The notes beneath the pieces were generated by a model that was not told where the DNA came from, ran no database searches, and saw only the letters and a program-made list of their open reading frames with translations. The position numbers and the translations under genes are program-made. 64,000 nt of DNA from an uncultured Chloroflexota bacterium (GTDB lineage Bacteria > Chloroflexota > Anaerolineae > UBA4142 > SHND01), in NCBI GenBank assembly GCA_937870825.1, contig CALMZO010000329.1, positions 1-64,000 of the forward strand, read 5' to 3'. How positions within the stretch are numbered: position 1 is the first letter of the stretch; every line of letters begins with the position of its first letter. This document shows positions 661 through 62,283 of this stretch, one piece after another.

Positions 661-720
661 CGTTTGACGTTTTGACGTTTGACGTTTTGATGTTTTGACG
701 TTTGACATTCGTCCTTCGTC
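656..720. repeat. Heptamer array, TTTGACG family
   Basis: Seven or more imperfect copies of TTTGACG (some with an extra T) run from the rnhB stop codon, then change to TTCGTCC/TTCGTCT units. The same unit appears at 617-631 inside rnhB and at 27499-27526 inside the macroglobulin gene. The last TTTGACA copy may double as a -35 box for yraN. Confidence 0.85.
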
Positions 721-1120: not shown

Positions 1121-2079
1121 GCGAGAATTTGAAATTGCGGATTGCGAATTGGGAATTTCAAAATTCGCAATCCGCAATCCGCAAATTATTTGTTATCGTC
1201 GGTCCCACCGCCGTCGGCAAAACAGACATTGCGTTGCAGCTCGCGCACGCGTTCGACGGGGAAATTGTTTCTGCCGATTCGCGCACGATGTATCGCGGGA
1301 TGGATATTGCGACGGCGAAACCAACGCGCGAGGAACAAGCGCGCGTGCCGCATCACTTGATTGATGTGGTGGAACCCGATGAAGAATTGACGCTGGCGGA
1401 ATATCAAACACGCGCGTATGCGGCGATTGACGAAATTTTTGCGCGCGGCAAAATTCCGTTTCTCGTCGGCGGAACGGGCTTGTACGTGCGCGCGGTGGTC
1501 GAGGGGTATACCATTCCGCGCGTGCCGCCGAACATGACACGGCGCGCCGAACTCGAACAAATTCCCGCGCCCGAACTGTACGCGCGTTTGCGAACGCTTG
1601 ACCCCGAAATCGCGCAAACGATGCTGCCCAATAACACGCGGCGCATCATTCGCGCGCTCGAAGTGATTGAAGCAACGGGCGAAAAAATGTCCGCGCTGCA
1701 AACGCGTCACCCCCCCCCGTATCCCATCACACAGCTTGGTTTGAGTTTGCCGCGTCCGCTTTTGTATGCGCGCGTGGATGCGCGGATTGACAAGATGCTC
1801 GAAAACGGATTGGTGGACGAAGTGCGCGGCTTGGTCGCGCGCGGGTATGCGTTCGATTTGCCGAGCATGACGAGTTTGGGCTATCGTGAAATCGGCGCGT
1901 ATGTGCGCGGCGAAATTTCATTGGAGCAAGCCGTCACATTGTTGAAAAGCAACACGCGCAAATTTATCCGCCATCAAGCGAATTGGTTTCGTCCCGGCGA
2001 TTCGCGAATTCATTGGTTTGATTTGTCGGTTTCAAGCTATGATGCCATTCAAAAGTTTGTGGCAAGCGAAATTCCCTGA
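1117..2079 (+). CDS. miaA: tRNA dimethylallyltransferase
   Basis: Transfers a dimethylallyl group to N6 of adenosine 37 in tRNAs that read codons starting with U. The P-loop GPTAVGKT, the DSRTMYRGMDIATAKPT region, the GGTGLY motif and the C-terminal TRKFIRHQANWFR are diagnostic. The start is a GTG overlapping the yraN stop (GTGA), so the preceding 24 residues before the first beta-strand are translated from a palindromic heptamer array and have no family counterpart. A 9-base C run at 1710-1718 encodes part of HPPPY. Length of 320 is normal apart from the N-terminal extension. An alternative later start cannot be excluded, but no good ATG is present before the P-loop. Confidence 0.95.
   Translation: MSENLKLRIANWEFQNSQSAIRKLFVIVGPTAVGKTDIALQLAHAFDGEIVSADSRTMYRGMDIATAKPTREEQARVPHHLIDVVEPDEELTLAEYQTRAYAAIDEIFARGKIPFLVGGTGLYVRAVVEGYTIPRVPPNMTRRAELEQIPAPELYARLRTLDPEIAQTMLPNNTRRIIRALEVIEATGEKMSALQTRHPPPYPITQLGLSLPRPLLYARVDARIDKMLENGLVDEVRGLVARGYAFDLPSMTSLGYREIGAYVRGEISLEQAVTLLKSNTRKFIRHQANWFRPGDSRIHWFDLSVSSYDAIQKFVASEIP
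1132..1187. repeat. Palindromic heptamer array in miaA 5' end
   Basis: Units related to GGATTGC/GCGAATT are followed by their reverse complements (GCAATCC GCAATCC), so the two halves can pair into a hairpin around position 1159. The array is inside the miaA reading frame and encodes its odd N-terminal extension (LRIANWEF and NSQSAIRK). Confidence 0.8.
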
Positions 2080-10100: not shown

Positions 10101-12209
10101 CGGATTCGCGCCATCACCCAACGCACGCGCAAAGATGGTTCGCTCGTAGATGTGGAAATGTCCGGCGTTCCGGTCATGGTCGAAGGCAAACAGCTCGGTA
10201 ACATTCTCATCTATCATGACATTACCGAACTCGCACGCGCGCGGCGCGAAGCGGAACTAGCCAATCAAGCCAAGTCCGCGTTCCTCGCGACGATGAGTCA
10301 CGAAATTCGTACACCGATGAACGCCATCATCGGCATGAGCGGATTGATGCTGGACACGCAACTCAATCCAGAACAGCGCGAGTACGCAGAAATTATTCGC
10401 AGCAGCGGCGACGCGCTCCTCACCATCATTAACGACATTCTCGACTTTTCCAAAATCGAAGCGGGCAAAATGGAAATCGAGAATCAGCCGCTCGATTTGC
10501 GTGAGACGGTCGAAGGCGCGCTCGACCTCGTTGCGACACGCGCGGCAGAACAAGGGCTCGACCTCGCGTATCAATTTGATGCGAATGTGCCGCAAACCAT
10601 TGTCGGCGATGCGACGCGTCTGCGTCAGATTCTCTTGAATCTATTGAGCAACGCGGTGAAATTTACGGAAAAGGGCGAAGTGGTCTTGAACGTAACGACG
10701 AACGACGAACGACGAACGACGAATCCAACTTTGTCTTTGGTCAATCGTCCTTCGTCGGTTGTCTTGCATTTCTCCCTCCGCGACACCGGCATCGGTATTG
10801 CGCCCGCGCAGCTCGCGCGCTTGTTCCAATCGTTCTCGCAAGCCGACGCGTCCACCGCGCGCAAGTACGGCGGCACGGGCTTGGGACTCGCGATTTCAAA
10901 ACGCCTCACGGAACTGATGGGCGGAACGATGTGGGCAGAGAGCGCGGGCAAAGGTCACGGTTCAACATTTCACTTTACGATTGAAACCAAAGCATTGGCG
11001 ACGCCGCGGCGTACCCGCCGCGAATTGGACAGCACACAGCCATTGCTTCAAGAAAAACGCGCGCTCATCGTGGACGACAACGCGACGAATCGCCGCATCC
11101 TCGTCACGTATTTGCGAAATTGGGGAATGCTCACGCGCGATACGGCATCCCCGCACGAAGCGCTGCAATGGATTCAACGCGGCGACCCGTTCGATGTAGC
11201 CATTCTCGATATGCACATGTCAGAGATGGACGGCGTAGAATTGGGACATGCGATTCGAAATCAACGCGACGCGCGCGCATTGCCCCTTGTGCTATTCAGT
11301 TCGCTTGGACAACGCGAGCAAGCCGATTTGTTTCACGCGCAGGTCAGCAAGCCCATCAAGCCGTCGCAGCTTTACGACACGCTGGTCAATTTGTTTGTGC
11401 AGGAAACGCTTACCATCTCTACGGGGGAATCCAAAATGGTGCTCGACCCCACCATGTCACAAAAACACCCGCTCCGCATTCTCCTCGCCGAAGACAATGC
11501 GGTGAATCAAAAACTCGCGCTGCGCTTGTTGCGGCAAATGGGCTATCGCGCGGATGTTGCCGCAAACGGCATTGAAGTTTTAGAGTCGCTTGAACGGGGC
11601 GCGCAGTTTGCGCCATATGACGCGATTTTGATGGATGTGCAAATGCCGGAAATGGACGGGCTCGAAGCATCGCGCCAAATCAACAAACGGTATGCGCAGA
11701 GTGAACGCCCGCGTATTATTGCCATGACCGCGAACGCGATGCAAGGCGACCGCGAAATGTGTCTCGCCGCGGGCATGGACGATTACTTGACAAAACCGAT
11801 TCGGGTTGAGGAACTCGTCGCCGCACTATTCAAAACCAAGCCCCATCGAGACCAAGGACAACGGACAACGGACGACGCGATTTTGGATTCTCACGTCTTT
11901 GCAAATTTAAAAGCGACGATGGGCGCGGATTTCATCGGCGAGCTCATTGACACCTTCCTTGAGGATTCGCCGCAACTCATCGCCGAAATGAAACGCGCGC
12001 ACGCGGCGAATGACATGGACTCGTTCCGCCGCGCGGCGCACAGTCTGAAATCCAACAGCAACAATTTCGGCGCGTTGCAATTGGCGGCACAAGCACAAGA
12101 ATTGGAGGGGATGGCGCGCGAAAGAAATTTGACCGGGGCGGAGGAAAAAATTGCAAGAATTGAAAAAGCGTATGAAAAGGTAAAGCGCGTCTTGGAGCAG
12201 AGGCAATGA
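7170..12209 (+). CDS. Hybrid histidine kinase: five GAF, PAS, HisKA, HATPase, two REC, HPt
   Basis: A 1679-residue cytoplasmic sensor kinase with no membrane segment. Five GAF domains (about 50-200, 210-375, 390-547, 563-727, 740-900) are followed by PAS (905-1023), HisKA with MSHEIRTPMN (phospho-His at residue 1044), HATPase with NLLSNAVKFT and GTGLGLAIS, two receivers (phospho-Asp at 1347 in LDMHMSEMDG and 1489 in MDVQMPEMDG) and a C-terminal HPt (RAAHSLKSN, His 1624). This is a self-contained four-step phosphorelay. Linkers between GAFs 2-4 are near copies (IINxVQQGLASKLDMQGIY), showing internal duplication. Two heptamer arrays are inserted in frame: NDERRTTNP plus about 15 residues in the ATPase domain, and RDQGQRTTDD before the HPt. 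It overlaps the cyclase gene by ATGA, the probable receiver of its HPt phosphate. Confidence 0.93.
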   Translation: MPNTKPKTNPKPTRSRKTPPAQVKPRARKPSAALSRDAQIQNALYRIADAASAVTDMQEFYATLHRIVGELMYAKNFFIALHDKQSDILSFPYFADETGDTAPQPQPLGNFRGATNYIFRVMKPVRATRAFDEQMIARGEYELSGTSSEDGLAVPFVIDEHLKGLIVLQSYTPEIGYSDADLDVLNFVAQHIATALARARAIEETKQRNAELHVINSIQQGLASKLEFKAIINLVGESVRDIFDAQVTFIALVDHSTNMVHLPYYVEDGKRFEEEPFPLGEGLTAHVIRTRTRLIINENFLELAVKLGAKPSGSGRICKSWTGIPIFAAERVIGMLSLQNYEHENAFSDSAVNLMTTIASSLGIALENARLFDETQRLLKETEQRAAELEIINSVQQGLASKLDMQGIYDLVGDKIREIFDAQAVVLVRLDHENELIYRPYITEKDKRIEFPPGPFHGLARHLIQERHTILINENWATRLRELGGITSNENETKACLLVPFLVAGHVMGWIALENLEHENAFTESDVRLLETLANSMSVALENARLFDETQRLLKESEQRAAELQIINAVQQGLASKLDMQGIYELVGEKIREIFDAQVVVIGYRDEAANLSRFPYAIERGERVYFPPITLPPGKLGLLGDYFQKTRQPLVINQDFVERAAEFPFLQNGEGEKPKSLISVPIFSGNNFRGAISLQNLDHENGFSASDVGLLQTLTNSMSVALENARLFEETERRARETAATSEILRIISQSPGDEKPVLDAIAVSAARLCDSSDAQVFRVNGNVLEQVASFGDVPNLPLGEGIPLNRGSVSGRAFLDRRTLHISDILTLPPEEFPEAIALAKRFGHRTTLVVPMIREGAALGVILLRRMRVEPFNETQVRLLETFADQAVIAIENARLFDEIQSGKQYNEAIVQTSPVAIITVDLDFNVVSWNPGAEQLFGYTAQEAIGRNIYDLHSKLDQLRSESTQYGEEIKSGRRIRAITQRTRKDGSLVDVEMSGVPVMVEGKQLGNILIYHDITELARARREAELANQAKSAFLATMSHEIRTPMNAIIGMSGLMLDTQLNPEQREYAEIIRSSGDALLTIINDILDFSKIEAGKMEIENQPLDLRETVEGALDLVATRAAEQGLDLAYQFDANVPQTIVGDATRLRQILLNLLSNAVKFTEKGEVVLNVTTNDERRTTNPTLSLVNRPSSVVLHFSLRDTGIGIAPAQLARLFQSFSQADASTARKYGGTGLGLAISKRLTELMGGTMWAESAGKGHGSTFHFTIETKALATPRRTRRELDSTQPLLQEKRALIVDDNATNRRILVTYLRNWGMLTRDTASPHEALQWIQRGDPFDVAILDMHMSEMDGVELGHAIRNQRDARALPLVLFSSLGQREQADLFHAQVSKPIKPSQLYDTLVNLFVQETLTISTGESKMVLDPTMSQKHPLRILLAEDNAVNQKLALRLLRQMGYRADVAANGIEVLESLERGAQFAPYDAILMDVQMPEMDGLEASRQINKRYAQSERPRIIAMTANAMQGDREMCLAAGMDDYLTKPIRVEELVAALFKTKPHRDQGQRTTDDAILDSHVFANLKATMGADFIGELIDTFLEDSPQLIAEMKRAHAANDMDSFRRAAHSLKSNSNNFGALQLAAQAQELEGMARERNLTGAEEKIARIEKAYEKVKRVLEQRQ
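10689..10763. repeat. Facing heptamer array inside the HATPase domain
   Basis: Four GACGAAC units are followed by units on the opposite strand (reverse complement reads GACAACC GACGAAG GACGATT GACCAAA GACAAAG). The in-frame insertion falls between two beta-strands of the ATPase domain, after GEVVLNV and before VVLHFSLRDTGIGI. Confidence 0.85.
11850..11877 (+). repeat. Heptamer array before the HPt domain
   Basis: Four units GACCAAG GACAACG GACAACG GACGACG, in frame, encode the linker RDQGQRTTDD between the second receiver and the HPt domain. Confidence 0.75.
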
Positions 12210-26544: not shown

Positions 26545-29500
26545 TCACTCTACCACAAACTGAATCGGCTTACTCTCGCCTTGCAGATTCGGATTATAGT
26601 AATCGTACATGGATGTACGCGGTGTCTGCACGCGCAGTGGAAATTTCGCCTGCAACGCATAATCGAACGAAATGCGTTCGCCCGCGCGCACATTTTCCAA
26701 ATACAAAATGATTTGGCGTCCCGTCAATTCATACCGCGACAATTTTCCCTGTTTCACCGCCGCGTCCAATTCGTCGGTCAACACATTGAACCCCGGCGGC
26801 ACGCCCAAGTCCACGACTGCCATGCGCGCTTCGCCCTCGTTCAAACGAATCGTCGCCCTCGCGCGCACCTTGTCGTTCACTTTTAATTCCGTGCGGTCAT
26901 AATCCACCTCAACTTGCATCGCCTCCGCGCGATTTTCCTCCACCCCTTTCCAGTCCACATAGTACGAGGTCGAAATTTGGTACGCGAACGCGCCGGTGCC
27001 ATTCACGCGGAATTTTATTTCCCGCGCGCCCGCACCGATGTCGTCGAACGTCAAAACCTGTACTGCCGAATCACCTTTTTCAAAACGCAATTCGCGTTCC
27101 GCGCTGTCGTCGAACGAAACCGTCACCGTTCCTTCTGCCGCGCCCGTGCCGCCTTCCAGCGCGGAGGCGACGAGTGCGCGCAGTGCGAGGATGGTTGCTT
27201 GCGTTGTGCCCCATGTGCCGCGCGGGTCTTTGTGTTGAATCAAGTACGTCAACGCGGCTTGCGCGGAATCGAGCTGCGCGCGTCCTTTAAGCAGCGCGTG
27301 CGCGGCGAGCGCGGTGGTTTCCAAATCGCCGAATTCACCATACGCGCCGCTAAAGGTTCCGCCGCGACTGGTCCAATATACTCCGTCGTCTCTCGTTTCT
27401 CGCATCTCGTTCAAACGGTCCAACACGTCACGCGTACTTGCATCGTTCACATCGTACGCCACCAACGCATTCGCAATCAACGCCAACACATACGCATCTT
27501 TTACGTTTGACGTTTGACCTTTCAAATACCCTATCGCGCGCCGCGTTCCATTCTCATCTTTTCCTCCACTCTCCGCCAACGCCCACGCGACAATCGCCGT
27601 CAACGCGGTGGGGTCACGCGGCGAATCGTGCGGATGGTCCCAGCCCACTTCGCCTTGCCATGTCCCATCGCGACTCTGCGTTTGCAATAACCACTGCCGC
27701 GTGCGCTGCAAAACCTCCGCGTCAATCGGATACACACGCGCCATGTCGTTAAATTCCAAAAGCCCTTTCGCGCTCAACATTGCCGACGCGGGCGGTTTCC
27801 CGAAAATCGAAAAGCCGCCGCCGTCATTTTCAAACGTGAGCAAACGTTGATAACCGAGCCCGATGTAAGTCTCCGCTTTCAATTGCACTTGCGGCGACAA
27901 CTGCGCGGTTTCTTTAAGGTACGTCAACGCGAGAACGTTCGGGTATGTTGTCGAACTCGTTTGTTCAAAGCAGCCGTTTGGCATTTTGAAAATCGCGTCG
28001 AGCCCCTCGACGAGTTGGCTCATCACACCGGGATACACTTTGACCTCGACGCGCGCCGTGCCGGGAATCGCGCCGTTCGGAATATTTGCGGTTTGCGTCG
28101 CGTCTGCGCGCAGCCAATTGCTCTGTGTCTCGACAAACTCTTTGCCGTCGGGATACACGCGCACATCTTTTTGAATCGCGTCGCTCATGGATTCTCCAAT
28201 GGCTGTGACCTTTAACTGCTGCGCGCCAAACGCGCGCGCGGTGATACGGAAATACACCACATCAATTTCATTCGCCTCGACGGTGATGGATTTCGTCGCG
28301 TCGTCGTCCAAATCGAACCATCCTGCGTTTTCGATTTCGAGTTCGACGCGCTGCGCGTGCGGCAAATAATTGTACACCGCGACAGGAATCGCGATTTCAT
28401 CATTTTGCGTGAGCGCAATCGGCAAATCCAAATCAATGAAAAAGTCCTGGAACACGCGAATCCCCGCTTGCGCCGTTCCCAATTCGCCGTTTTGCGAATT
28501 TGCCAACGCGGCGAGCCGCCACGTCGTTATTGAATCCGCGAGCGGCAATTCTATTTCCGCGCGCCCATTTTCGTCCGTGATGAGCTGCGGATTCACGTAC
28601 AACGTTTCGGGAAAGTACGAACGCGTGCGCGGCGCGGCTGCCGCGTTTTGCGATTGCGCTTCATTTGCCGACGCGGGCGCGGCAGTTGGCTGCGCGGGCG
28701 CCGCTGTCGGCTGCGGTGCCGCCGTCGGCGCAGCTATCATTGGAAATGGCACCGTGGTGGGCGCAGCAGAAGGCGCACAGCCCAACAACGAAAGCGGCGA
28801 AATATACGCAAGCGTGTTGCCCATCGTTCGCACAAACGGCGTCGCTTGCGGCAGCCACGCGAGCAGCATCACGAGCGGCACGAGCAGAATGCCGACACCG
28901 AACGCGCTCAAGCCCGCGCGTTTTTCATTCGACAACACGAGTCCAACGCCAAACAAAACCCACGCGGCAATGCCCGCGAGAAACAGAATCGCGATCCACG
29001 CGAACGCGCGCAATTCATTGACGTTCAAGCGCGTCGTGAACGCGAACACGCCCAACAAAACAATGTACGCGGTGAGCAGCATTAACGCGAGCTGCGTCAA
29101 CGTATCGCCGCGCTCAAGCGCATAGACCCACAACAGCACGTAACACGTCACCCATCCCATCACGAGCGCGATGAGCGCAAGTTGCAAAATCAACGTACTC
29201 GCAAACACGTACGCGAGGACGCCAATCACCAACGCGACGAACGGCGCGGCGATGCACACGCCGAGCAGAACGACAGCCCCGCGCGCCAACGCGTCGCCCA
29301 AAATTTTCCGCGCGTTCAGTGCGCCGAAAATCAGACCGCCGAACGCGAGCGGCACGAGGGTGAGAATAATGCCGAGCGCGTCATTGAAATCGGCAAAGCG
29401 TTCGGATTGCGCGCGCGCAAATTCCGCGCGTTTCTGTTCGAGCGGAATTGTATGCAAGGGAAGGTTGAATGTCGGAAGGTTCGCCCACGCCGCTTGCGCG

Positions 29501-31402: not shown

Positions 31403-31435
31403 GGATGGGTAAGGTGACGGGTGACGGGTAAACGG
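31403..31435. repeat. Short heptamer array upstream of the macroglobulin
   Basis: GGTGACG GGTGACG GGTAAAC preceded by a degenerate GATGGGTAA unit, in the 59-base gap between the two coupled minus-strand genes. Confidence 0.65.
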
Positions 31436-32637: not shown

Positions 32638-34170
32638 ATGAAATCCTTTGGCGCGCTTTTAACCGAATACATGACGCGTACGGGCATTAGCGACAGCGAA
32701 ATGGCGCGGCATTTGGGCGTCAGTCGGCAGACGATTTTTCGCTGGAAGGAGGGAATGACCGCGCGCCCGCGCGTGCGTGAGGATGTTTTGAAATGCGCGG
32801 ACCGTTTGCGGTTGACCGCAGAGGAACGCGATGCGCTTTTGCTCGCGGCGGGGTTTGCGCCGGAAACGCGACAGGCGACACAGGACGAAAGACGAACGAC
32901 GAACGAAACGGAAACAACAGAACCGCAAACGCTTGTGCCAGTCATTGAACCCAACGCGATTGCCGCTGCGCCGACGCGTTCACTGCTGCGCCGCGCGCGT
33001 TGGCTCGCGTTCGCAATACCCGTGCTGGTGTTGTTTGGATTTTTTGGCGGCGCGTTTTTGATTTTTCCGCGCGAGACCCAAAATCTCATCGCGTTTGTAA
33101 ATCCGCCGACGCCGACGGCGACGGTGACACCACCGCCGCCTACCCCGGTTCCCCCGTCCGAACAAGTTGTGGTGATTGCGGCATTGAACAGTCGCGGCGG
33201 CACCGCGCCGCCGTACAACGTGACAGCGCGTTTGCGTTTTGCATTCGAGCAGGAAATTCAAAAACAAAATTTTCTGGCGGTGCGAATTTTGGATATTGCC
33301 GACCAGGTGCGGGACCCGGTGATGGCGGAACGTTTGCGCGCCCGTTCGGGCGGACAGGTCATGTTGTGGGGCAATTATTCGGGAGACAATGCGCGCGTGG
33401 AAATCGGGTACAGCACACACGTACCGTTTCGCGCAAGCGGCGCGTCGGTTTTTCCCATGCTGCCCGTAGACCAATCGGCGACGCTGAATTTGAGCAAACC
33501 GAACGAGGTACGGGCGCTCGCGCTGTTGACGCTAATGCCATTGCATTTGGAGCGCGGGGATACGATACGCGCAGTGGAAGCGTTCAACACCGCGCAGAGT
33601 TTGACGCCGTACTCGAACGAAATGCGCGCGGCGTTGGAATTTTATCGCGGCTACTTGCTGCAAACCACCGGTTTGGAGCAGAACGCAGAACCGCGCGAAT
33701 TCGACGAGGCGATTCGCGCGTACAATCGAAATTTGAGCACGACATCGCTTTACGAAGCGTACTTGAATCGCGGCTTGGTGTATCTCGCGCAAAATGAAGA
33801 TGCGGCAGCAAAAACGGATTTTCAACGCGCGCAAGGAATTGAGCCGCAGCGTCCCGAAGCATGGCGCGCGGCGTGTTGGGCATTCGCGTTGGAACAACAG
33901 CCGCAAGCCGCGCTGTCGTTATGCGATGCGGCGGCGACGCGCGATGCGTCCGCGTGGTCGCTGGACACGCGCGCGATTGTGTATGCGGAATTGGGACGGT
34001 ATGCGGATGCGGCAAACGAGTTTCAAAATTTTCTGCACTGGCTCGACACGCAGCCCGCGCGCACGCGCGAATTGTTTGCGCCGACGCGACGCGCGTGGAT
34101 TGAAACCTTGCGCGGCGGAAAAAATCCGTTTGACACGGAATTGTTGAATCAGTTACGCGGTGCGCCATAG
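32638..34170 (+). CDS. HTH-TM-TPR protein, probable membrane-bound regulator
   Basis: A 510-residue protein in three parts. Residues 1-75 are a Cro/C1-type helix-turn-helix (MARHLGVSRQTIFRWKEGMTARPR). A disordered linker includes a heptamer repeat (QDERRTTNETE). Residues about 118-144 form one membrane span (WLAFAIPVLVLFGFFGGAFLIF), a PTPTATVTPPPPTPVPP spacer follows, and the outer part (about 180-510) has an alpha/beta region (VVVIAALNSRGG to GQVMLWGNYSG) then TPR-like helices (AYLNRGLVYLAQNEDAAAKTDFQRAQGI). It may sense something outside and act on DNA inside. The ATG at 32638 begins at the HTH; the ORF-track start runs through the upstream repeat. Confidence 0.72.
   Translation: MKSFGALLTEYMTRTGISDSEMARHLGVSRQTIFRWKEGMTARPRVREDVLKCADRLRLTAEERDALLLAAGFAPETRQATQDERRTTNETETTEPQTLVPVIEPNAIAAAPTRSLLRRARWLAFAIPVLVLFGFFGGAFLIFPRETQNLIAFVNPPTPTATVTPPPPTPVPPSEQVVVIAALNSRGGTAPPYNVTARLRFAFEQEIQKQNFLAVRILDIADQVRDPVMAERLRARSGGQVMLWGNYSGDNARVEIGYSTHVPFRASGASVFPMLPVDQSATLNLSKPNEVRALALLTLMPLHLERGDTIRAVEAFNTAQSLTPYSNEMRAALEFYRGYLLQTTGLEQNAEPREFDEAIRAYNRNLSTTSLYEAYLNRGLVYLAQNEDAAAKTDFQRAQGIEPQRPEAWRAACWAFALEQQPQAALSLCDAAATRDASAWSLDTRAIVYAELGRYADAANEFQNFLHWLDTQPARTRELFAPTRRAWIETLRGGKNPFDTELLNQLRGAP
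32884..32911 (+). repeat. Heptamer repeat inside the HTH-TM-TPR gene
   Basis: GACGAAA GACGAAC GACGAAC GAAACGG, in frame, encodes DERRTTNETE in the linker. The same unit and the same peptide DERRTTN occur inside the hybrid kinase. Confidence 0.8.
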
Positions 34171-34336: not shown

Positions 34337-36179
34337 TGATTGGCAATCCTTCCAGCTCCATAATCCTCAACGCGTTCGTCGTGGGCGAGGGTCCTGCGCG
34401 TAACGTGTAATCAAACACCAAACGCCCCTCGCTCACATCATCGCGAAAATGAAAATTGCGCGCGAGCGGATTTTTTTCGGGAATGTGCGCGAGTTCCAAA
34501 TCGTGCGTGGCGATGAGCCCCGCGCCGTTTGCGCCGAGTAAAGTGTAAATGTACGCGCGGCTGCCGATGAGTCGTTCGCGATTGTTCGTGCCGCGAAAAA
34601 TTTCATCAATGAGATAGAACAGCGGTAATTCCTCCGGTGCCCCGAGTTCCCTCAAAAGTTCTTTCAAGCATTTCACTTCCGCATAAAAGTACGAAAAGCC
34701 GTCGGCAATGGAATCGGTGATGCGAATGCAGGTACGCAAACGAAACGGCTGCGCGACAAAGTTCGCCGCGATGACCGGCGCGCCCGCGTAGGCGAGACAA
34801 AAGTTGATGCCGATGGTTTTGAGGAATGTGCTTTTCCCCGACATGTTGGAACCCGTGAGAATTTCCACTTGGCCCAAATTTTGAATTTCAAAATCGTTCG
34901 TGATGCGCGCGCGCGCGGGAATTAACGGATGCCCCAATTTTTCCGCGCGCAAAATCGGCGACGCGGGCGCTGAGAATTCGCGCGCGCGAATTTCGGGAAA
35001 CGCGGCGGCGGGATGCAGCGCGGCGAAATTGCCGAGCGCGATGAGCGCGTCGAGTTCATGCACCACGCGCACCCATTCGGGCAAGGTTTGCGCGACGCGC
35101 GCGCGCTGACGGTCGGCGAGAAACGCAAACAAAAAATCCCACGGCAAAATTAGATTGAGGAACACGGCGAACAACGGGTTGCTTCGCAAACCGACGGCGG
35201 CAGTAATCCACTGCACCACGCGCAATTGTTCGGAGGGCGCGGGGGTTTTGTTTTGAAACAGCGAGACGAGTTCCGCGAGATGCGGCGCATCGTGATATGA
35301 CGCGCGTTCGAGGTACTGCGCGAGCGCGCGAAATTTTTCGAGTTCGGTGTTGAGGCGCACGACGGCATTCAAAACTGCTTCCCTATGGTCTTTGTTCCAA
35401 AAATAAAATGCCACGTACGCCAGGAATGAAAAAATATAGTACGCGGGAACATTCCAAACTTGCGCGAGGGCAAACAAGACAAGATTTATGAAAACGAGAA
35501 TCGCCGCAATCGGCAGCGTCCAACGCAAACGCGCGGACGGGAATTCCGTTCTCAACCAATCGAGCAAATTGTCGCCTTCGAGTTCGCGTTGCAGCACGCG
35601 GCGATAGGTGAGCCAAAAGCGTTCGCGAAAACGCGCGCGCGTTTTCAATTCGCGCACGATGTTTTGGCGCGCGTGCAGCGCGTTCACGTCCGGACGCGAC
35701 TGCGTGAGCCATTCCGCAAGCAATTGTGTGCCGTGACGCGAAACGGTGGTGTCGAGGAGTTGATGGAGCGAATTGTAACCGGTGAGGTCAAGGTCACGCG
35801 CGAGGGATTTGCGCTCTGCGAGCAATTCAATCGGACGCGGCGCGGGAATGTTTTCCCAATCGAGGAGGAGGCGCGCGCGTTGGTCTTGTTTTTGCGCGCG
35901 TAAACGCGTCAGTGTTTCAATCCAATTATCCTGGCGGCGATGGACAAGCACGAGAAGCGAGAAAACGAGAAACGAGAGCGCGACAATGAACCACGCGAGT
36001 GTGCCATTGAAAAAAATCGCGGTCAGAATCGCAGCAACGATGCCGATTAAAACAATCGTGAGGCGTAACAGCGCGATTTGATTGCTGCGCTGTTCCAACG
36101 GAAGCAAACGTTTCGCCAGACGTTCAATTTGAAAATCAAGAGTTCTTGCACTTGATACCTGATACTTGATACTTGACAC
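34332..36179 (-). CDS. Membrane-associated MutS-family ATPase
   Basis: A 615-residue protein whose C-terminal third is a MutS-type ABC ATPase: Walker A TGSNMSGKSTFLKT, Walker B LPLFYLIDEIFRGTNNRER and the His in IATHDLELA. The middle has the MutS core helices (YNSLHQLLDTTVSRHGTQLLAEWLTQSRPD). Unlike mismatch-repair MutS, it has no mismatch-recognition domain and carries hydrophobic pairs at about residues 40-80 and 220-265, so it should be membrane bound. Such MutS-like membrane ATPases are known but their function is unclear. The start is uncertain: the GTG at 36179 lies in a heptamer array that encodes the first residues (SSIKYQVSS). Confidence 0.8.
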   Translation of the reverse strand: MSSIKYQVSSARTLDFQIERLAKRLLPLEQRSNQIALLRLTIVLIGIVAAILTAIFFNGTLAWFIVALSFLVFSLLVLVHRRQDNWIETLTRLRAQKQDQRARLLLDWENIPAPRPIELLAERKSLARDLDLTGYNSLHQLLDTTVSRHGTQLLAEWLTQSRPDVNALHARQNIVRELKTRARFRERFWLTYRRVLQRELEGDNLLDWLRTEFPSARLRWTLPIAAILVFINLVLFALAQVWNVPAYYIFSFLAYVAFYFWNKDHREAVLNAVVRLNTELEKFRALAQYLERASYHDAPHLAELVSLFQNKTPAPSEQLRVVQWITAAVGLRSNPLFAVFLNLILPWDFLFAFLADRQRARVAQTLPEWVRVVHELDALIALGNFAALHPAAAFPEIRAREFSAPASPILRAEKLGHPLIPARARITNDFEIQNLGQVEILTGSNMSGKSTFLKTIGINFCLAYAGAPVIAANFVAQPFRLRTCIRITDSIADGFSYFYAEVKCLKELLRELGAPEELPLFYLIDEIFRGTNNRERLIGSRAYIYTLLGANGAGLIATHDLELAHIPEKNPLARNFHFRDDVSEGRLVFDYTLRAGPSPTTNALRIMELEGLPIT

Positions 36180-36180
36180 C
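36151..36180. repeat. Heptamer array at the MutS-like gene start
   Basis: CTTGATA CCTGATA CTTGATA CTTGACA, directly beside the stop codon of the FAD oxidoreductase gene and covering the presumed start of the MutS-like gene. Confidence 0.8.
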
Positions 36181-37455
36181 TCATTGCACCCAATCGAGAA
36201 AACGATAATACGGCGCGGCGAATGGCAGGAACCATGGATTGCCCCAATAGAACGGCATCGTGGGAAATTTCATGCCTTCAAAGGGATTGTGCCATTCTTG
36301 ACCCGCGATGCGATTGGCGAGTTGTTGTCCGAGATACGTAGCGAGCGCGACGCCGTGACCTGCGTAACCCATCGCGTAATACACACCGTCCATTTGTCCC
36401 GCGTGCGGATAAATGTCAAAGGTGAAACCGAGCGTGCCGCCCCACGCATACGCGGTGGGATATTTCTCCACTTGCGGAAAAATTTCCAACATGCCCTTGC
36501 GTAAAATGTCCGCGCTCCCGCGCACGGTGTCGGGCGTCGCGGGAAAAAACGCGGCGCGTCCGCCAAACACAATGCGGTCATCGGGCGAGCGACGAAAATA
36601 GTACAAAAGATTTTTCGTGTCGAAAATCATGCGATTGTTCGGAATGAGTTGCTGCGCGAGTTTTGCGTCGAGCGGTTCGGTGGCAATGATGTAACTGCCG
36701 ATTTGGATGATACGTTTTTGAAATTGCGGCATCGCGCGGTCGGTGTATCCGTTCGTCGCCGCAATCACCTCTTTGGCTTGGATATTGCCGCGCGGCGTTT
36801 TCACAATAAAGCCGTTGGCGTTTTTTTCGACGCGTGTGGCGGGCGTCGCGTCGTGCAAATCCGCGCCTGCGCGTTGTGCGGCGCGCGCGAGCCCGCGCAC
36901 GTATTTCGCCGGATGCAGTCCCGCGCTGCGTTCGTCCACGAGACCGCCGTGATAAAAATTGGTGTCGAGTTCGGCGCGCAAATTTTGTTTTTCGACAATG
37001 CGCGTGGGGTAATCAAATTCGCGTTCGAGGAGTTCGTGCGTTTTTTTCAAATGGTCAAGATGCGCGGGTTTGTACGCCGCGTCAAAGTGTCCGCGCCGCG
37101 CAAAATCGCAGTCAATGTTTTCTTCTCGCACAAGCGTCGCGACGGTTTCCAACGCGGCGAGTGACGCGTTCCACAACTCGCGCGCGCGCGTAATTCCAAG
37201 CGTGCGCGTGATTTCGCCGATGCCGTGTTTGTGTCCCGTCAGCGCCATGCCGCCGTTGCGCGAACTCGCGCCCCAGCCGATGCTTTCTTTGTCCAACACG
37301 GTAACGAGTGCGCCGAGTTTTGCCAACCGCAGCGCGGCAGACAGTCCCGTATACCCGCCGCCGACGATGACGACATCGGCGCGTTCGGGCAATTCGCGAT
37401 TTGCAAACGAAGGCAGGTCAGGGGCTGTGGCAGACCAGAGGGATTGGAGTTGCAT
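36181..37455 (-). CDS. FAD-dependent oxidoreductase, DAO/gamma-glutamylputrescine oxidase-like
   Basis: A 424-residue amine or amino-acid oxidase. The FAD dinucleotide-binding motif VVIVGGGYTGLSAALRLAKLGALVTVLDKESIGWGASSRNGGM is immediately followed by the family's RNGG segment, and the C-terminal FAD contact FDIYPHAGQMDGVYYAMGYAGHGVALATYLGQQLA is intact. It most resembles PuuB-type oxidases that deaminate gamma-glutamyl or polyamine substrates. TATAAT on the minus strand at 37512-37507 is a candidate -10, about 50 bases upstream. The stop nearly touches the MutS-like gene. Confidence 0.85.
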   Translation of the reverse strand: MQLQSLWSATAPDLPSFANRELPERADVVIVGGGYTGLSAALRLAKLGALVTVLDKESIGWGASSRNGGMALTGHKHGIGEITRTLGITRARELWNASLAALETVATLVREENIDCDFARRGHFDAAYKPAHLDHLKKTHELLEREFDYPTRIVEKQNLRAELDTNFYHGGLVDERSAGLHPAKYVRGLARAAQRAGADLHDATPATRVEKNANGFIVKTPRGNIQAKEVIAATNGYTDRAMPQFQKRIIQIGSYIIATEPLDAKLAQQLIPNNRMIFDTKNLLYYFRRSPDDRIVFGGRAAFFPATPDTVRGSADILRKGMLEIFPQVEKYPTAYAWGGTLGFTFDIYPHAGQMDGVYYAMGYAGHGVALATYLGQQLANRIAGQEWHNPFEGMKFPTMPFYWGNPWFLPFAAPYYRFLDWVQ

Positions 37456-41800: not shown

Positions 41801-43006
41801 ACGAGCGAAAGCGACGGACACCAAGTCACCATCGGCGGCATTATCAAAAGCGTGCGCCAAATCACTACCAAAAAAGGCGACGCGATGGCGTTCCTCCAAG
41901 TCGAAGACCCGCAAGGTTCGATTGAAGTTGTCGCGTTTCCGCGTGTGTTCAACGACTGCCGCGATGTGATTCACGAAGACGCGCTGGTGCTTGTGCGCGG
42001 CAAAGTCCAGGTGCGCGAAGAAAAAATCGCGCTGCTCGCGGACTTGATTTGGAATTTTCCGATTGACGACGCGTCATCACGCATCCTGTTTGGGACAGGC
42101 GGGGCGCGTGATGACGCGTCAACTCCCAAACCCGAAGCCGTCGCGCACGCCGACCGACCCATTCCCGGAATTTTTTCCAACACGCCGGTCATTGTTCCCA
42201 AACCCCCGCCGAGCGTGAATGAAATCGTCGAACGCGTCATGGACGATTGGCTGCCGCCGCCGGGAGAGTGGGATGAGGAACAGACGACAGACGACAGACC
42301 ACAGACGAGAGACGAGAAACGACAAGCACATGTCATTGATGAAATTCCGCAAGCTACGGGAGTGATTGAACAAGTTGCGGCTGCTGAAAATTCAAATGTC
42401 ACTGTTGCCGAAACGCAGACGGAAACTCTCGACGCTGACGATGAATGGTTCAAACCGAATGACGACGCATTTGCGGAACCGGAACCAATTGCTTCGAATA
42501 TTGAAACGCTTACCCTAAAACAAGAAACAGTTAGCGTGCCTGTCGAACCACCAATGAACGAAATTCCAACACCCGCGCAAAACAGTGCGCCTCCCCCAAC
42601 CAATCCCGTTCCCGAAATCAAACTCGGCGGCGGCGTCGCCATTCCGAGCAAGAATGCCGGCAACGGCGCGACGCGCCCGCAGCATTCCGCGCCTGCCCCA
42701 CGCGGCAATGTGGGAAACGTCGCGCGCGAAAATTCTCCCGTCTATGTTCCGCGCGGCAATGGCAACACGCGCCGCGTGCGCGTACGCATGTATCGCACGA
42801 ACGACGACGCGCTCGACACGAAACGAATGCGCGAAGTGGTGAAACTATTACGCAGCGCGGAAGGACGTGACCGCTTTGCGCTCATTGTCCCGTCGCAAAA
42901 AAGTTGGATCGAACTCGACTTTCCAAATTTCTATACCAACATTGACCAAGTGATGCCCGTCCTGATGGATAGAGTAAGTGATTGGGGCGAAGTAGAGTTG
43001 GGTTGA
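38897..43006 (+). CDS. dnaE: DNA polymerase III alpha subunit
   Basis: Replicative polymerase of 1369 residues. The PHP domain opens the protein (VHLHVHSEYSLLDG, VTDHGTMFAAIEFYDAC), the catalytic aspartates are in MPDIDLDFPDDAR (about 394), then FQLEGGGMKRVV, LYRPGPMDYIPDYI, tandem HhH and an OB fold (VTIGGIIKSVRQITTKKGDAMAFLQVEDPQGSIEVV, about 975-1055). A disordered, acidic linker of about 240 residues and a C-terminal 80-residue domain follow. The linker contains a 15-base-arm palindrome and a seven-unit heptamer array. A 10-base G run (40711-40720) encodes Gly-Gly-Gly in the active polymerase domain. The ATG at 38897 begins the PHP domain; the ORF-track start is 83 residues upstream in non-homologous sequence. 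A terminator follows the TGA. Confidence 0.96.
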   Translation: MTDFVHLHVHSEYSLLDGLSRTKGLAARAKQLNMPAVAVTDHGTMFAAIEFYDACKEQGVKPIIGVEAYLAPRTMADRDGKLDRSPYHLVLLAENESGYKNLLKISSTAQLQGFYQKPRVDKRYLENVSEGIIATTGCLAAEIPQLLVHGKTKQARDLVDWYRQIFQDRFYVELQEHGIPELTRVNRDLIALAREFKLKLIATNDVHYVAKEDWFAQDVLLCVQTGATVNQSDRMKMDGRDYWFKSQDEMLEVWGELPEALTNTLEIAERCNVDLSFKGYHLPNFTVPEGFTPASYLRAICEQGFRQRYPDASPAYIERLNYELGVIHKMGFETYFLIVWDLCRHARENGIWANARGSAAGSMVAYCLGITHLDPLEHNLIFERFLNPDRISMPDIDLDFPDDARQDMINYTVNKYGKENVAQIITFGKMLAKAAIRDVGRAMDYPLSETDRVAKLIPIGPGQTIDGSLENVREFRELYEGSDYIRKLIDNAKLLEGVTRNASTHAAGVVVTDKPVIEYTPLHRPTRGDESGTPVTQYPMGDLEHIGLLKIDFLGLAHLTIVREACKLINERHGTNYDLNSIPVEDAKAFELMARGDVIGLFQLEGGGMKRVVTQMRPTKFDHIVATIALYRPGPMDYIPDYIARLHGQQKIEYRHPALEPILGETFGIMIYQEQIMRIARDLCGFSGGETDTLRKAVGKKNKEAILKQREKFISGAGKTGIITKEIASGIFDDIEFFARYGFNKSHAAVYGVLTCQTAYLKAHYTIEYMTALLCTDIGNTEKIAMFIAEARHLGIQILPPDVRYSGMKFTIDDGAHAIRAGLLAIKNVGEGPVQAILDGRDEKPFDSLDDFCTRVDLKQVNRRVLESLMKAGAFDAFGHRAQLLEAIDQMLSVSASHHSASAAGQLSMFGGMLAADTFGELPKVKEIDNKTQLEWEKELMGVYFTPHPLLKLADAAKKHVGAFTGEITSESDGHQVTIGGIIKSVRQITTKKGDAMAFLQVEDPQGSIEVVAFPRVFNDCRDVIHEDALVLVRGKVQVREEKIALLADLIWNFPIDDASSRILFGTGGARDDASTPKPEAVAHADRPIPGIFSNTPVIVPKPPPSVNEIVERVMDDWLPPPGEWDEEQTTDDRPQTRDEKRQAHVIDEIPQATGVIEQVAAAENSNVTVAETQTETLDADDEWFKPNDDAFAEPEPIASNIETLTLKQETVSVPVEPPMNEIPTPAQNSAPPPTNPVPEIKLGGGVAIPSKNAGNGATRPQHSAPAPRGNVGNVARENSPVYVPRGNGNTRRVRVRMYRTNDDALDTKRMREVVKLLRSAEGRDRFALIVPSQKSWIELDFPNFYTNIDQVMPVLMDRVSDWGEVELG
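42068..42120. repeat. Dispersed palindrome family 2, copy in dnaE
   Basis: Perfect 15-base arms GACGCGTCATCACGC and GCGTGATGACGCGTC with a 23-base centre, in frame, encoding roughly DASSRILFGTGGARDDAS just after the OB fold. A related palindrome lies at 55870-55925. Confidence 0.85.
42280..42328 (+). repeat. Heptamer array in the dnaE linker
   Basis: ACAGACG ACAGACG ACAGACC ACAGACG AGAGACG AGAAACG ACAAGCA, seven units in frame, encoding QTTDDRPQTRDEKRQ. Confidence 0.85.
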
Positions 43007-48734: not shown

Positions 48735-48741
48735 TTTGAAT

Positions 48742-48838
48742 AAAGGATGAGGGATAAAGGATGAAGGATAAAAGTAATCAGTAATCAGTAATCGGTAATC
48801 AGTAGACTGATTACTGATTACTGACCTCTGATTACTGT
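48742..48838. repeat. Intergenic double heptamer array
   Basis: Four AAAGGAT-type units (48742-48769) and four GTAATCA-type units (48774-48801) are followed by the reverse complement TGATTACTGATTACTG...TGATTACTG up to 48838. The repeat fills the entire gap between two genes and can fold into a long hairpin. Confidence 0.9.
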
Positions 48839-55925: not shown

Positions 55926-55929
55926 CAGC

Positions 55930-55951
55930 CCTCATCCCTCATCCCTTATCT
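55930..55951. repeat. Heptamer array at the two-TM gene end
   Basis: CCTCATC CCTCATC CCTTATC, the reverse complement of the GGATGAG/GGATAAA family at 48742. It includes the stop codon of the minus-strand two-TM gene. Confidence 0.75.
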
Positions 55952-57259: not shown

Positions 57260-57317
57260 GTAGCAGGTATTAGGTAGCATGGAACACTTTACCACTTGCT
57301 ACCTTATACCTGCTACC
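57258..57317. repeat. Facing heptamer array between GT2 and UPF0104 genes
   Basis: GTAGCAG GTATTAG GTAGCAT, a short centre, then ACTTGCT ACCTTAT ACCTGCT ACC, whose reverse complement is the same family. It fills the gap between the two genes. Confidence 0.88.
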
Positions 57318-57323
57318 CGCATC

Positions 57324-58289
57324 ATGCAATTCCTCAAACGTTATCAAACTCCCCTCCGCCTTCTCACGGCCCTCGCGCTCATCGCGCTTGTACTCTTTTT
57401 GAAGATTGATTTGCGCGAGACGTTTTCCATCCTCGCCAATGCGAATGTCCTGCTCGTCGCGCTGTCGGTGTTGGGGTTCATTCCGTTCTTGCTCGTAAAA
57501 GCATGGCGCTGGCAAGTGATATTGCGTGACCTCGGTGTCGCAATTCCGTTTGGGCAAGCGGTTCGTCTTTATGCGCTCGGACTCGGCGCGGGCATGTTGA
57601 CGCCGGGGCAAGTGGGCGACGCGGTAAAAATCGCATATTTTCGTGAACGCGGTTTTGGACAATCCATCATCTCGATTTTGTTGGACCGCCTGTGGGATGT
57701 TTTGATACTTGTCTTGCTCGCGGGCAGCGGCGCGTTGTTTTTTGTTCAATTGTTTGAAGGCGAATGGATTGCGATTGCGTTGTTGTTCGCGGGGACGGTT
57801 GTGGTATTCGCCGTCGTCAACCATCCGCGCGCGCAGCACTGGCTCTTTCACCAATTGCGCCGCGTGCGAAAAAAAGATGACGCGCTCGCGGCGTATGAAC
57901 CGCAACCGCTTACCCTCACGCAAATTGTGGTACAATTTTTGTTGAGCATTCTCGCGACGGCGCTTGTGTACGCGCGTTTGTATTTGCTCACCAGCGCGTT
58001 GGGAATTTTCCTCGCGCCCGTTCCATTCGTCGCGGCAATGTCGCTTGCCACTATCGCCGCGTTGTTACCCATTTCGCTCATGGGCGGAATCGGCACACGC
58101 GACGCGGCACTGTTGCTCATTGCGCCCATTATCAACATCACCGGCGCACAGGCGCTCGCCATTTCAACGCTCATTCTTTTCATTCAACTCGTGAACGGCA
58201 TCGTCGGATTCGCCGTTTGGCTCTTGGAAGGCAAGACACCGGAACCCAGAACAAAGAACACAGACGTAAGCCGCCCCTCGACTCTGTAA
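57324..58289 (+). CDS. UPF0104/AglD-like integral membrane protein, possible flippase
   Basis: A 321-residue protein with about eight spans from the lysylphosphatidylglycerol-synthase transmembrane/UPF0104 group. The conserved core is present: FLLVKAWRWQVILRDLGV, LGLGAGMLTPGQVGDAVKIAYFRERG and LPISLMGGIGTRDAAL. Relatives flip lipid-linked sugars or lipids across the membrane, which suits its place between a polyprenol-sugar GT2 and a GT4. The ATG at 57324 follows the heptamer array; the last 15 residues (PEPRTKNTDVSRPSTL) are encoded in the next array and look like repeat-derived tail. Confidence 0.83.
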   Translation: MQFLKRYQTPLRLLTALALIALVLFLKIDLRETFSILANANVLLVALSVLGFIPFLLVKAWRWQVILRDLGVAIPFGQAVRLYALGLGAGMLTPGQVGDAVKIAYFRERGFGQSIISILLDRLWDVLILVLLAGSGALFFVQLFEGEWIAIALLFAGTVVVFAVVNHPRAQHWLFHQLRRVRKKDDALAAYEPQPLTLTQIVVQFLLSILATALVYARLYLLTSALGIFLAPVPFVAAMSLATIAALLPISLMGGIGTRDAALLLIAPIINITGAQALAISTLILFIQLVNGIVGFAVWLLEGKTPEPRTKNTDVSRPSTL

Positions 58290-58352
58290 TCTGTGTTCTG
58301 TAATCTGTGTTCTGACATCCGTGTTCTGTCATCTGTACTCTGTAATCTGAAA
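58239..58352. repeat. Longest heptamer array, ten TCTGTNN units
   Basis: Ten contiguous 7-base units, TCTGTAA TCTGTGT TCTG..., run from 58283 to 58352, the last A being the A of the GT4 ATG. On the other side, CCGGAAC CCAGAAC AAAGAAC ACAGACG (58239-58266) are units of the complementary family, so the whole can fold back. It spans the end of the UPF0104 gene and the gap to the GT4 gene. Confidence 0.92.
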
Positions 58353-59590
58353 TGCGCGTCCTCATGCTCACCTCGTCGTACCCGAAATTTCGCGGCGACA
58401 CGACAGCCCCGTTCATCGAATCCATCGCGACTAACATTGCGCGTCAAAACGTTGCCGTACATGTTGTGCTGCCCGAACATCGCGAATTGAAACGCGGCGC
58501 GGTCGAAGACGGTGTGCATTTTGAACCGTACAAGTACGCGCTGAAAAAAGAATGGACGCTGTGGGGCTACGCGGAAGCGCTGCGCGGCGATGTGAAATTG
58601 AAACGCGGCGTGTACGCGCTCGCGCCGTTCGCCATCGCCTCATCGTTTCAAAAAATGATGCAAGTCACCGCGCGCGAAAAATTTGATGTCATGCACGCGC
58701 ATTGGGTTTTGCCGAACGCGCCCGCGGCGGCGCTCGTCGCGCGGATTCGCAAATTGCCGCTTGTGATTTCGATGCACGGCAGCGATGTATTCATGGCAGA
58801 AAAAAATCGCGCGTTCGGCGCGACCGCGCGTTGGTGTTTTGACCATGCCGCGTGGAGTACCGCGTGCAGTGATGATTTGATGCAGCGCGCAATTTCCATC
58901 GGCGCGGATGAAAACAAAACCGAACTGATTCCCTATGGCGCGGACGCGAAAGCATTTCACGTTCATCCTGAACACGCCGCGCGTGTGCGCGCGGAATTGC
59001 AGCTCGAAAAAAATGACGTCATGATTCTCGCCGTCGGACGCATGGTGTATAAAAAAGGTTTTGAATTTCTCGTGCGCGCAATGCCGCAAATTTTACAGCA
59101 CGCGCCGCACGCGCGTTTGGTGTTGGTCGGTTACGGCGATTTGCGCGACGAATTGCAAGCGCAGGCGCACGCGCTCGGCTTGAACGGACACGTCACCTTT
59201 GCCGGACGCGTGCCGCGCCAAGAAATTCCCGCGTATTTTAGCGCGGCGGATATTGTGAGTGTGCCGTCGGTGCGCGACGACGCGGGGAACGTGGACGGTC
59301 TGCCGAATGTGTTGTTGGAAGGGATGGCGGCAGGCAAAGCGATTGTTGCGAGCAACATCGCAGGTTTTCCTGATGTGATTGAAAATGAAGCGAGCGGAAT
59401 TTTGGTCGAGGAAAAAAATTCGGATGCGTTGGCGCGCGCGATTGTGCGTCTCGCGCGCGATGAAACATTGCGCGAACGCTTGGGCACGCGCGCGCGAATG
59501 CAAGTGCATGAAAATTTGAACTGGGAAAACGTGGCGCGGAAATTTATCAATGCGTATGCGCGCGTGATAGAAAAACAAAGAGCCAATTGA
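58352..59590 (+). CDS. GT4 family glycosyltransferase
   Basis: A 412-residue GT-B transferase, close in pattern to WbaZ/RfaB/AmsK-like enzymes. N-terminal LMLTSSYPKFRGDTTAPFIESIA and HAHWVLPNAPAAALVARIRKLPLVISMHGSDVF; C-terminal LAVGRMVYKKGFEFLVRAMPQI, LVGYGDLRDELQAQA, SVRDDAGNVDGLPNVLLEGMAAGKAIVASNIAGFPDVIENE. Catalytic Glu is in LLEGMA. The ATG directly abuts the heptamer array, with no ribosome binding site visible in the repeat. The gene ends before palindrome family 3. Confidence 0.9.
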   Translation: MRVLMLTSSYPKFRGDTTAPFIESIATNIARQNVAVHVVLPEHRELKRGAVEDGVHFEPYKYALKKEWTLWGYAEALRGDVKLKRGVYALAPFAIASSFQKMMQVTAREKFDVMHAHWVLPNAPAAALVARIRKLPLVISMHGSDVFMAEKNRAFGATARWCFDHAAWSTACSDDLMQRAISIGADENKTELIPYGADAKAFHVHPEHAARVRAELQLEKNDVMILAVGRMVYKKGFEFLVRAMPQILQHAPHARLVLVGYGDLRDELQAQAHALGLNGHVTFAGRVPRQEIPAYFSAADIVSVPSVRDDAGNVDGLPNVLLEGMAAGKAIVASNIAGFPDVIENEASGILVEEKNSDALARAIVRLARDETLRERLGTRARMQVHENLNWENVARKFINAYARVIEKQRAN

Positions 59591-59610
59591 TGCGCTGATT
59601 CGAAAATAGA

Positions 59611-59648
59611 CCTCACCCCCAACCCCTCTTTCACAAAGAGGGGGAGAT
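59611..59648. repeat. Dispersed palindrome family 3, intergenic copy
   Basis: CCTCACCCCCAACCCCTCTTT CAC AAAGAGGGGGAG; the inner arms CCCCTCTTT / AAAGAGGGG are perfect with a 3-base loop. It follows the GT4 gene and could also slow transcription, but it lacks a T-tract. Confidence 0.75.
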
Positions 59649-61843: not shown

Positions 61844-62283
61844 ACACCCCCTTGTGATTTTCCGTTCACCAACTCAATCTGGTGTGAATTCGAGAGCGAA
61901 TCTCCTTCAAGACGTTTGCTTGGTCGGTTGTGGGATTTGAGCCAACGCTATCAAGCCGCGCCACATACACCTACACAAGACGCAAAAAACGGCAACAGGT
62001 CAGCGACAGCGCGCAGCAATGCTTTTACCCGGACATCGCCCGCCAACAACCCGGCTTGTTAACTCGCCGTTTGGTTTCGTCCGCCGCGTAGAAATGGCAA
62101 TGGCTGTATCGCACCCAAACCAATGATAACACGCATTTCCAAAATTGGACACGGCAATTTTTTGCGTCACTTTTCTGGTAATTGGCACTTGGGCGAGACA
62201 ATGTGCGATAAGGATAGGGGCGTCCACAAGGGCGCGCCCCTACCATTCCTTCGTCTTTCGTCTTTTGTCGTCCGTCGGCTCCC
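61844..62283. other. 440-base gap with hairpin and heptamer array, no gene
   Basis: No reading frame here has family features. The right end contains TAGGGGCG / CGCCCCTA arms (62215-62242) and then CTTCGTC TTTCGTC TTTTGTC GTCCGTC (62249-62276), a four-unit heptamer array. In the left 350 bases I see only weak promoter-like strings and nothing I can support. Confidence 0.6.
62249..62276. repeat. Heptamer array near the CoxM-like gene end
   Basis: CTTCGTC TTTCGTC TTTTGTC GTCCGTC, complementary to the GACGAAC family found in the hybrid kinase and the HTH gene. It lies seven bases beyond the CoxM-like stop codon. Confidence 0.75.

Follow-up and report, generated by a model that had tools for sequence, protein, structure and literature searches.

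Why should ten copies of a seven-base unit stand at the junction of two genes, and does this junction follow a rule that holds elsewhere in the genome? The array lies in a 64,000-nucleotide stretch of DNA (the window, by which we mean the whole stretch analysed), and the nearest records to it are Chloroflexota/Anaerolineae metagenome assemblies. The preliminary description of this DNA had named ten TCTGTNN units as its best case, and a direct array of ten TCTGTNN-type units was indeed found at 58283-58353. The locus (57,260-59,700) is composed as follows.

57260..57316, + strand: TAGCAGG-type palindrome, between the stop codon at 57257-57259 and the start codon at 57324
57324..58289, + strand: upstream gene, LPG_synthase_TM family (Pfam PF03706, E=3e-36; start from ortholog conservation)
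58247..58266, + strand: 5' purine-rich arm CAGAACAAAGAACACAGACG, in the end of the upstream coding sequence, partly complementary to the array
58283..58353, + strand: TCTGTNN array, ten units (TRF period 7/14)
58352..59590, + strand: downstream gene, group 1 glycosyltransferase (Pfam PF00534, E=2e-41)

The array contains the stop codon TAA of the upstream gene (58287-58289), which is supplied by a TCTGTAA unit, and extends to the ATG of the next gene (58352-58354); the C-terminus of the upstream protein is read through the left arm into the array. When the segment was folded as RNA, the arm at 58247-58266 paired with the array from 58283 (z = -2.6). The focal locus is an intermediate kind of junction. 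The TAGCAGG-type palindrome in front of the upstream gene was a strong inverted repeat without a direct-repeat run (fold -33.2 kcal/mol, z = -8.4); a related but diverged form was present in the independently assembled sister species G005, and the palindrome was absent from two other members of the genus, G003 and G004. At the focal junction itself the host carried TCTGTNN units and G005 carried AAATCCT with GACGACA, and the segments folded for this ortholog comparison gave z values of -1.2 in the host and +1.4 in G005.

A phage origin of the focal element was rejected, as no match was detected among 50,697 phage records, and so was a known RNA family, as no Rfam match above the gathering score was detected in the window. 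A further dispersed element, CCTCACCCCCAACCCCTCTTT...AAAGAGGGGGAGA, which has matches throughout the genus, was seen at 59593-59700 of the window; in genome G001 some of its copies stand in tandem, about 39 bp apart (C32, C252).

A seven-base period across the genome

Periods were counted in 1.17 Mb of the window's own draft genome (the host, G000; 7.23 Mb in 446 contigs); about half of this sample was picked for carrying TCTGTNN arrays, and the rest was the window together with 0.49 Mb of contigs taken without selection. Set against periods 5-9, as the preliminary description had proposed, period 7 and its multiples dominated. Runs of score at least 13 numbered 113 at period 7, 62 at period 14, 25 at period 21 and 12 at period 28, compared with 0, 4, 11, 10, 1 and 0 at periods 5, 6, 8, 9, 10 and 11, and Markov controls contained no period-7 run of this score. 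The unselected 0.49 Mb plus the window gave the same picture, with 31 runs at period 7 and 0, 2, 5 and 5 at periods 5, 6, 8 and 9. In the window we detected 9 period-7 runs of score at least 11, where third-order Markov sequence predicted 0.3, and in the whole genome three successive TCTGTNN units occurred 51 times versus twice for the reversed pattern. Two contigs of the same draft genome, C16 and C32 (L036, L093), were about 87% identical across many kilobases, a similarity that points to a co-binned relative or to a duplication that has diverged (contamination was reported as 5.1%). That contigs of similar length were strain variants was rejected, their sequences being different.

Period-7 arrays had earlier been described across the stretch, and TRF confirmed them with matches at nearly every place listed. 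At 12 of the 14 places period 7 was clearly the best of periods 5-9; the step at 656 was a mixed 7/8, and the repeat at 57258 was inverted. Since arrays were also found at orthologous positions in the independently assembled sister species, they are not assembly artefacts. Besides those of the focal locus, the window contains the following arrays.

656..703, + strand: TTTGACG array, mixed 7/8 step (15-mer), gene junction (TRF)
1133..1184, + strand: GATTGCG / CGCAATC palindromic arrays, near gene start (TRF)
10694..10723, + strand: AACGACG array, in frame (TTNDERRTTN), in the HATPase_c domain (1146-1273, Pfam) of a hybrid histidine kinase, ORF 7170-12209
11856..11877, + strand: GGACAAC array, in frame, in the same hybrid histidine kinase ORF (TRF)
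27499..27522, no strand assigned: TTTGACG array, inside ORF 26545-31389(-) (TRF)
31413..31429, - strand: GGTGACG array, gene junction (TRF)
32884..32906, + strand: GACGAAC array, in frame, in a TPR/HTH protein ORF (TRF, Pfam)
36150..36181, - strand: TGATACC/TGATACT array, adjoining a gene junction (TRF)
42280..42324, + strand: ACAGACG array, read in frame as EQTTDDRPQTRDEKRQ, close to the C-terminal end of DNA polymerase III alpha (ORF 38648-43006); the G005 counterpart has diverged
48740..48837, - strand: palindrome of TCAGTAA/TTACTGA and a GGATGAG-type array, at the junction between two genes of the minus strand (TRF, fold)
55929..55950, - strand: CCCTCAT array, gene junction (TRF)
62250..62269, - strand: TTCGTCT array, near gene end (TRF)

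The earlier view that such a density is unusual outside the cyanobacteria proved too strong. Abundant heptamer arrays are known from Beggiatoaceae, some Bacteroidetes and Xanthomonas, and among our samples Roseiflexus was also rich, while several relatives of the same class had few. At the Roseiflexus loci L045-L049 the heptamer arrays were very dense and belonged to other families (GAGAACC, TTGAACG, CCCTAAC).

Placement at gene junctions

Although genes make up 83% of the DNA, 78 period-7 runs were intergenic and 35 genic. Arrays were present in 111 of 578 co-directional spacers (19%), 9 of 79 divergent spacers and none of 64 convergent ones. For spacers of 30-300 bp the counts were 95/448 co-directional versus 0/52 convergent (p = 1.7e-5), and in the unselected contigs alone 25/168 versus 0/19 (p = 0.08). 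One convergent array spacer each was met in small samples of G005 and G002, and one palindrome of the distant genome G118 also appears to be placed between convergent genes; the exclusion is a strong rule, not an absolute one. The convergent spacers of the host do contain strong hairpins (mean z -4.4), so that it is heptamers, not hairpins, that are excluded there. T-runs were found in 18% of array spacers versus 51% of convergent spacers. An intrinsic transcription terminator was rejected because few T-runs follow the hairpins and because arrays are absent from convergent junctions.

The array came within 20 nt of the start codon in 57 of 97 array spacers, individual start codons being approximate because genes and spacers were called by a simple hexamer-scored ORF finder. 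These start-proximal arrays were pyrimidine-rich in 42 of 49 cases, and a Shine-Dalgarno motif was found in 4 of the 57, against 116/351 (p = 1.6e-5). At the other end of the spacer, the gene's own stop codon recurred 7 and 14 nt later in 17 and 14 of the 97 array spacers, against 8 and 10 of 351. A multi-frame stop cassette was rejected, stop codons in the stop-proximal arms being only modestly enriched (0.065 versus 0.050 per nt).

A second dispersed palindrome class (GTCATTTCGAGCGGAGCGAGAAATC...GATTTCTCGCTCCGTTCGAAATGAC) also fills co-directional spacers (L071:1762-1850, L071:4788-4870, L072:11162-11260 and L070:16439-16523). At L071:1762 and L071:4788 its position corresponds to a heptamer array in the sister species.

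Hairpins of fixed polarity

In gene direction, a typical junction passes from the stop codon through a purine-rich heptamer arm and a loop to a pyrimidine-rich arm, the reverse complement of the first, and then to the start codon. In the 47 array spacers whose fold z was below -2, the stem had, in the median, 25 pairs and a 7-nt loop, started 0 nt past the stop codon and ended 11 nt short of the start codon. In 44 of these 47 hairpins (p = 2.5e-10), and in 61 of 108 non-heptamer hairpins, the purine-richer arm was the 5' one; when only strongly skewed cases were taken, the proportions were 31/31 and 19/36. Because each element is palindromic, it is purine-first on both DNA strands, and the polarity thus belongs to the element and does not depend on gene direction. 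Arms paired with their own partners at a mean of -24.4 kcal/mol, compared with -9.8 kcal/mol for the arms of other loci, and within five named families own pairs were also more stable than swapped pairs (for example -39.0 versus -32.6).

The structure was neither universal nor exclusive to the arrays. Just 55% of array spacers had a fold z below -2, which implies that single-armed or decayed arrays are common. Hairpins with z below -3 were nearly as frequent at array-free junctions (35%) as at array junctions (45%), so that hairpins are not peculiar to heptamers.

A limited set of unit families

Counted without regard to rotation and strand, the units of 116 loci fell into 63 of 1172 possible classes, AACGACG being the commonest. 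Between loci there were 670 coincident pairs of units, versus 51 ± 10 when units were permuted. The share of unit classes held in common with the host was 56% in G005 (8% expected from permuted units), 25% in G001 (3% expected) and 8% in Roseiflexus (9% expected). About a dozen families, each combining an invariant core with roughly two degenerate positions (TCTGTNN, ACTGANN, AAAAGNN and GACGRAN are examples), recur over the genome and the genus, and in 85 arrays the mismatches between neighbouring units clustered at fixed phases (chi-square 10.7 versus 5.2, p = 5e-13).

Presence was patchy even inside one genus, no heptamer arrays being detected in the samples of G003 and G004, and of 301 Chloroflexota genomes only a small number were rich in GACGAAN, among them a distant one that has its units in the same palindromic order. 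Y1_Tnp proteins were found in all six genus members. Mobilisation of the arrays as REP elements by a RAYT was not favoured, as the transposase also occurs in the array-poor G003 and G004, whose scarcity of arrays it leaves unexplained.

The longest TCTGT-family array that we met, about 19 ACAGANN units, was in G002 (L144:11929-12065). In the sister species a spacer before gene E (L041:7200-7420) consists of about ten copies of a unit of about 21 bases (GATTGTTGCGCGTCATTTC), that is, about three times seven.

Turnover at orthologous junctions

Junctions were matched to their orthologs in G005 and G002, with flanks mostly 70-90% identical. With families assigned by eye, G005 had the same family at 6 array junctions, another family at 8 and no array at 2, one of the last with a spacer of 8-10 bp. 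At L070:8372 the family was the same and G005 had exactly one extra 7-nt unit; at L106:16508 the 3' arm was identical in 33 of 33 positions, with flanks at 85-88%. Replacement was observed at L063:19640, which carried ACTGATT in the host, TAGCAGG in G005 and TAGCAAG in G002, and at L072:13278, with GACGAAC in the host versus GAGACTG in G005. Unrelated families occupying one site gave z values of about -4 to -7.5 in both host and G005 (-6.1 and -5.6 at L063:19640, -6.1 and -7.5 at L072:13278, and also L071:5615). Some array junctions, including the focal ortholog, had arrays without a stable hairpin.

Where no family was shared, another array was present in G005 at 8 of 10 array junctions versus 5 of 27 array-free junctions (p = 0.001), which marks the array junctions as hot spots or required slots. 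Given different families in the same gaps, the layout of a junction seems to be kept while its letters change. Some orthologous junctions in relatives were empty or 2-10 bp long, so that the module is dispensable there. None of 97 spacer elements had a non-self match of at least 95% over 50 bp in the 1.17 Mb sample; recent whole-element transposition was rejected, since neither near-identical copies nor target duplications were seen.

Arrays inside genes

Runs in the interior of coding sequences numbered 27 at period 7 and 0, 5, 3 and 8 at periods 5, 6, 8 and 9. As selection should prefer multiples of three in such places, these runs favour an intrinsic seven-base step, one that is not made by selection at gene junctions. 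The coding arrays draw on the spacer families, and open reading frames run through them (TNDERRTTND and later RPSSFVV, QTTDDRRQTTE, KSKIENQKSKIEN); the constant seven-base period and the recurring families that had been described are therefore supported inside coding sequence too. TNDERRTTND...RPSSFVV represents both arms of GACGAAC, a full palindrome within coding sequence, and a loop at L106:5810 is GACGAAC in the host and a TCTGT-type run in the G005 ortholog. Complementary partners of the coding arrays were not above control overall. When coding genes were examined for clean insertion, the orthologous site showed another family or divergence and was never empty.

Relation to known repeats

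Rickettsia palindromic elements are both intergenic and in-frame genic palindromes, and are copies of one long sequence; the host, in contrast, has no whole-element copies and only shared units. According to the summaries in PMC4679880 and PMC4692102, a survey of 2007 found heptamers to be the commonest class of long repeats in most genomes and proposed polymerase slippage, and the suggestion of seven-base slippage is attributed to Mrazek et al. 2007. The heptanucleotide STRR of cyanobacteria and the heptamer SSRs of Xanthomonas and Nostoc are mainly intergenic, degenerate and in some cases inverted (PMC4692102), and have seven-base units, a mainly intergenic location, conserved position and variable length in common with the host arrays. 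Unlike STRR, whose hosts are filamentous cyanobacteria, the arrays of this Chloroflexota genome comprise about a dozen families, form stop-to-start hairpins, lack convergent arrays, exchange families between orthologs and include in-frame coding copies.

The closest positional precedent is the TAACTGA repeat of Beggiatoaceae, Cyanobacteria and Bacteroidetes, which lies just upstream of start codons, with an occasional reverse set after the stop codon and 7-nt indels between strains (PMC4679880); the host arrays are likewise start-proximal, and TAACTGA is one of the units of the ACTGANN family, where it faces the start codon in the same direction. The TAACTGA system consists in essence of a single unit, with hardly any inverted repeats, whereas the host has paired arms and many unit classes. 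The closest structural and evolutionary precedent is the P6b stem of the Nostoc trnL intron, in which complementary degenerate heptamers (TDNGATT or NNTGAGT) vary in number, with a complete exchange of one class for the other at the same site (PMC4476775). It is a single intron stem, whereas the host modules occupy gene junctions genome-wide.

The closest functional system found is the ribosome termination structure (RTS) of E. coli, an mRNA hairpin directly after the stop codon at gene pairs more than 25 nt apart, which is not a terminator and limits re-initiation (PMC7518266); the host stem likewise starts a median of 0 nt past the stop. Membership is mixed, because RTSs have no repeat sequence and are commoner at opposite-strand pairs and depleted within operons (PMC7518266), whereas heptamer hairpins occurred at 0 of 64 convergent pairs. 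Among titles open without subscription, our literature search returned no description of intergenic heptamer hairpins of several families in Chloroflexota.

Discussion

The reading that we prefer, with a probability of roughly 0.45, is that the arrays are building blocks of intercistronic RNA hairpin modules with a post-transcriptional role, their heptamers coming from a seven-base copying process. The period, the junction bias, the polarity, the complementarity of the arms, the scarcity of T-runs and the turnover of families are observed. From these we infer a function in translation: in a co-directional mRNA the purine-rich arm at the stop codon would pair with the pyrimidine-rich arm about 11 nt before the next start, and the hairpin would most likely act after transcription, without ending it. 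It could keep a terminating ribosome from scanning on into the gene that follows, as a ribosome termination structure does, and may also protect the transcript. The repeats would arise through a copying process with an intrinsic seven-base step; complementarity would be kept by selection on pairing or by arm-to-arm copying, and modules of different heptamer families would replace each other within one junction. Several points count against this reading: array spacers without a stable fold, hairpins almost as frequent at array-free junctions, orthologous spacers that are empty or very short, the published depletion of RTSs within operons, and the arrays in coding sequence, which cannot serve a stop-start role.

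The main rival is tolerated insertion. The palindromes could be, like Rickettsia palindromic elements, a dispersal element or mutational by-product without host function, tolerated in operon-internal spacers without promoters or terminators, at gene ends and in protein surface loops, which we consider possible but doubtful. The 27 in-frame runs, some of them full palindromes, the family swap in the loop at L106:5810, the patchy presence in the genus, the abundance of GACGAAN in only a few genomes, one of them distant, and relatives with short or no spacers all agree with tolerated insertion. Convergent spacers should accept insertions equally, yet have none; no whole copies (0/97) or target duplications were seen, and some ortholog arrays are highly conserved, such as the 3' arm at L106:16508. 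Pure replication slippage with a preferred seven-base step, and no role for structure or family, accounts for the step inside coding regions and for orthologs of one family that differ by whole units (L070:8372, +1 in G005). It would, however, seed arbitrary units, and does not fit the 670 coincident pairs, the 56% of G005 unit classes common to the host or the variation at fixed phases. The preliminary description had proposed a shared slippage or copying mechanism with a 7-base step; the intrinsic step is favoured by the coding runs, but simple slippage alone is insufficient, because the arms are complementary with a fixed purine-first polarity and nearly confined to co-directional junctions, and because unit families are lineage-wide, vary at fixed phases and are replaced by others at orthologous sites. 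Pure slippage is thus already disfavoured, and we regard it as improbable.

It is, if anything, harder to credit that the pyrimidine-rich arm before the start is the functional part, as a translation start element independent of Shine-Dalgarno pairing and recognised by S1 or another RNA-binding protein, a reading that follows the proposal for TAACTGA in Beggiatoaceae. The scarcity of Shine-Dalgarno motifs and the pyrimidine richness of the start-proximal arrays speak for it, together with the TAACTGA unit in the ACTGANN family, but the low motif rate comes mostly from base composition (shuffled 3% versus 16%), and neither complementary arms at the stop codon nor in-frame arrays are predicted. 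Most speculative, and very improbable in our estimate, is a telomerase-like generator: a dedicated enzyme that carries a short internal template, such as a polymerase or a reverse transcriptase, would write purine-rich heptamers with a fixed core and two loose positions onto 3' ends, snap-back synthesis would turn them into purine-first palindromes, and these would be exchanged between junctions as hairpin modules.

Bacterial heptamer repeats have been noted for decades, and we know of no explanation of the number seven and of no established role. The anatomy described here, with arms of fixed polarity tied to stop and start codons and exchangeable between families, makes origin and function directly testable. 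The question of origin becomes what copies in steps of seven, and the question of function becomes whether hairpins of any sequence suffice. The findings link the STRRs of cyanobacteria, the TAACTGA repeats of Beggiatoa and the trnL stem of Nostoc.
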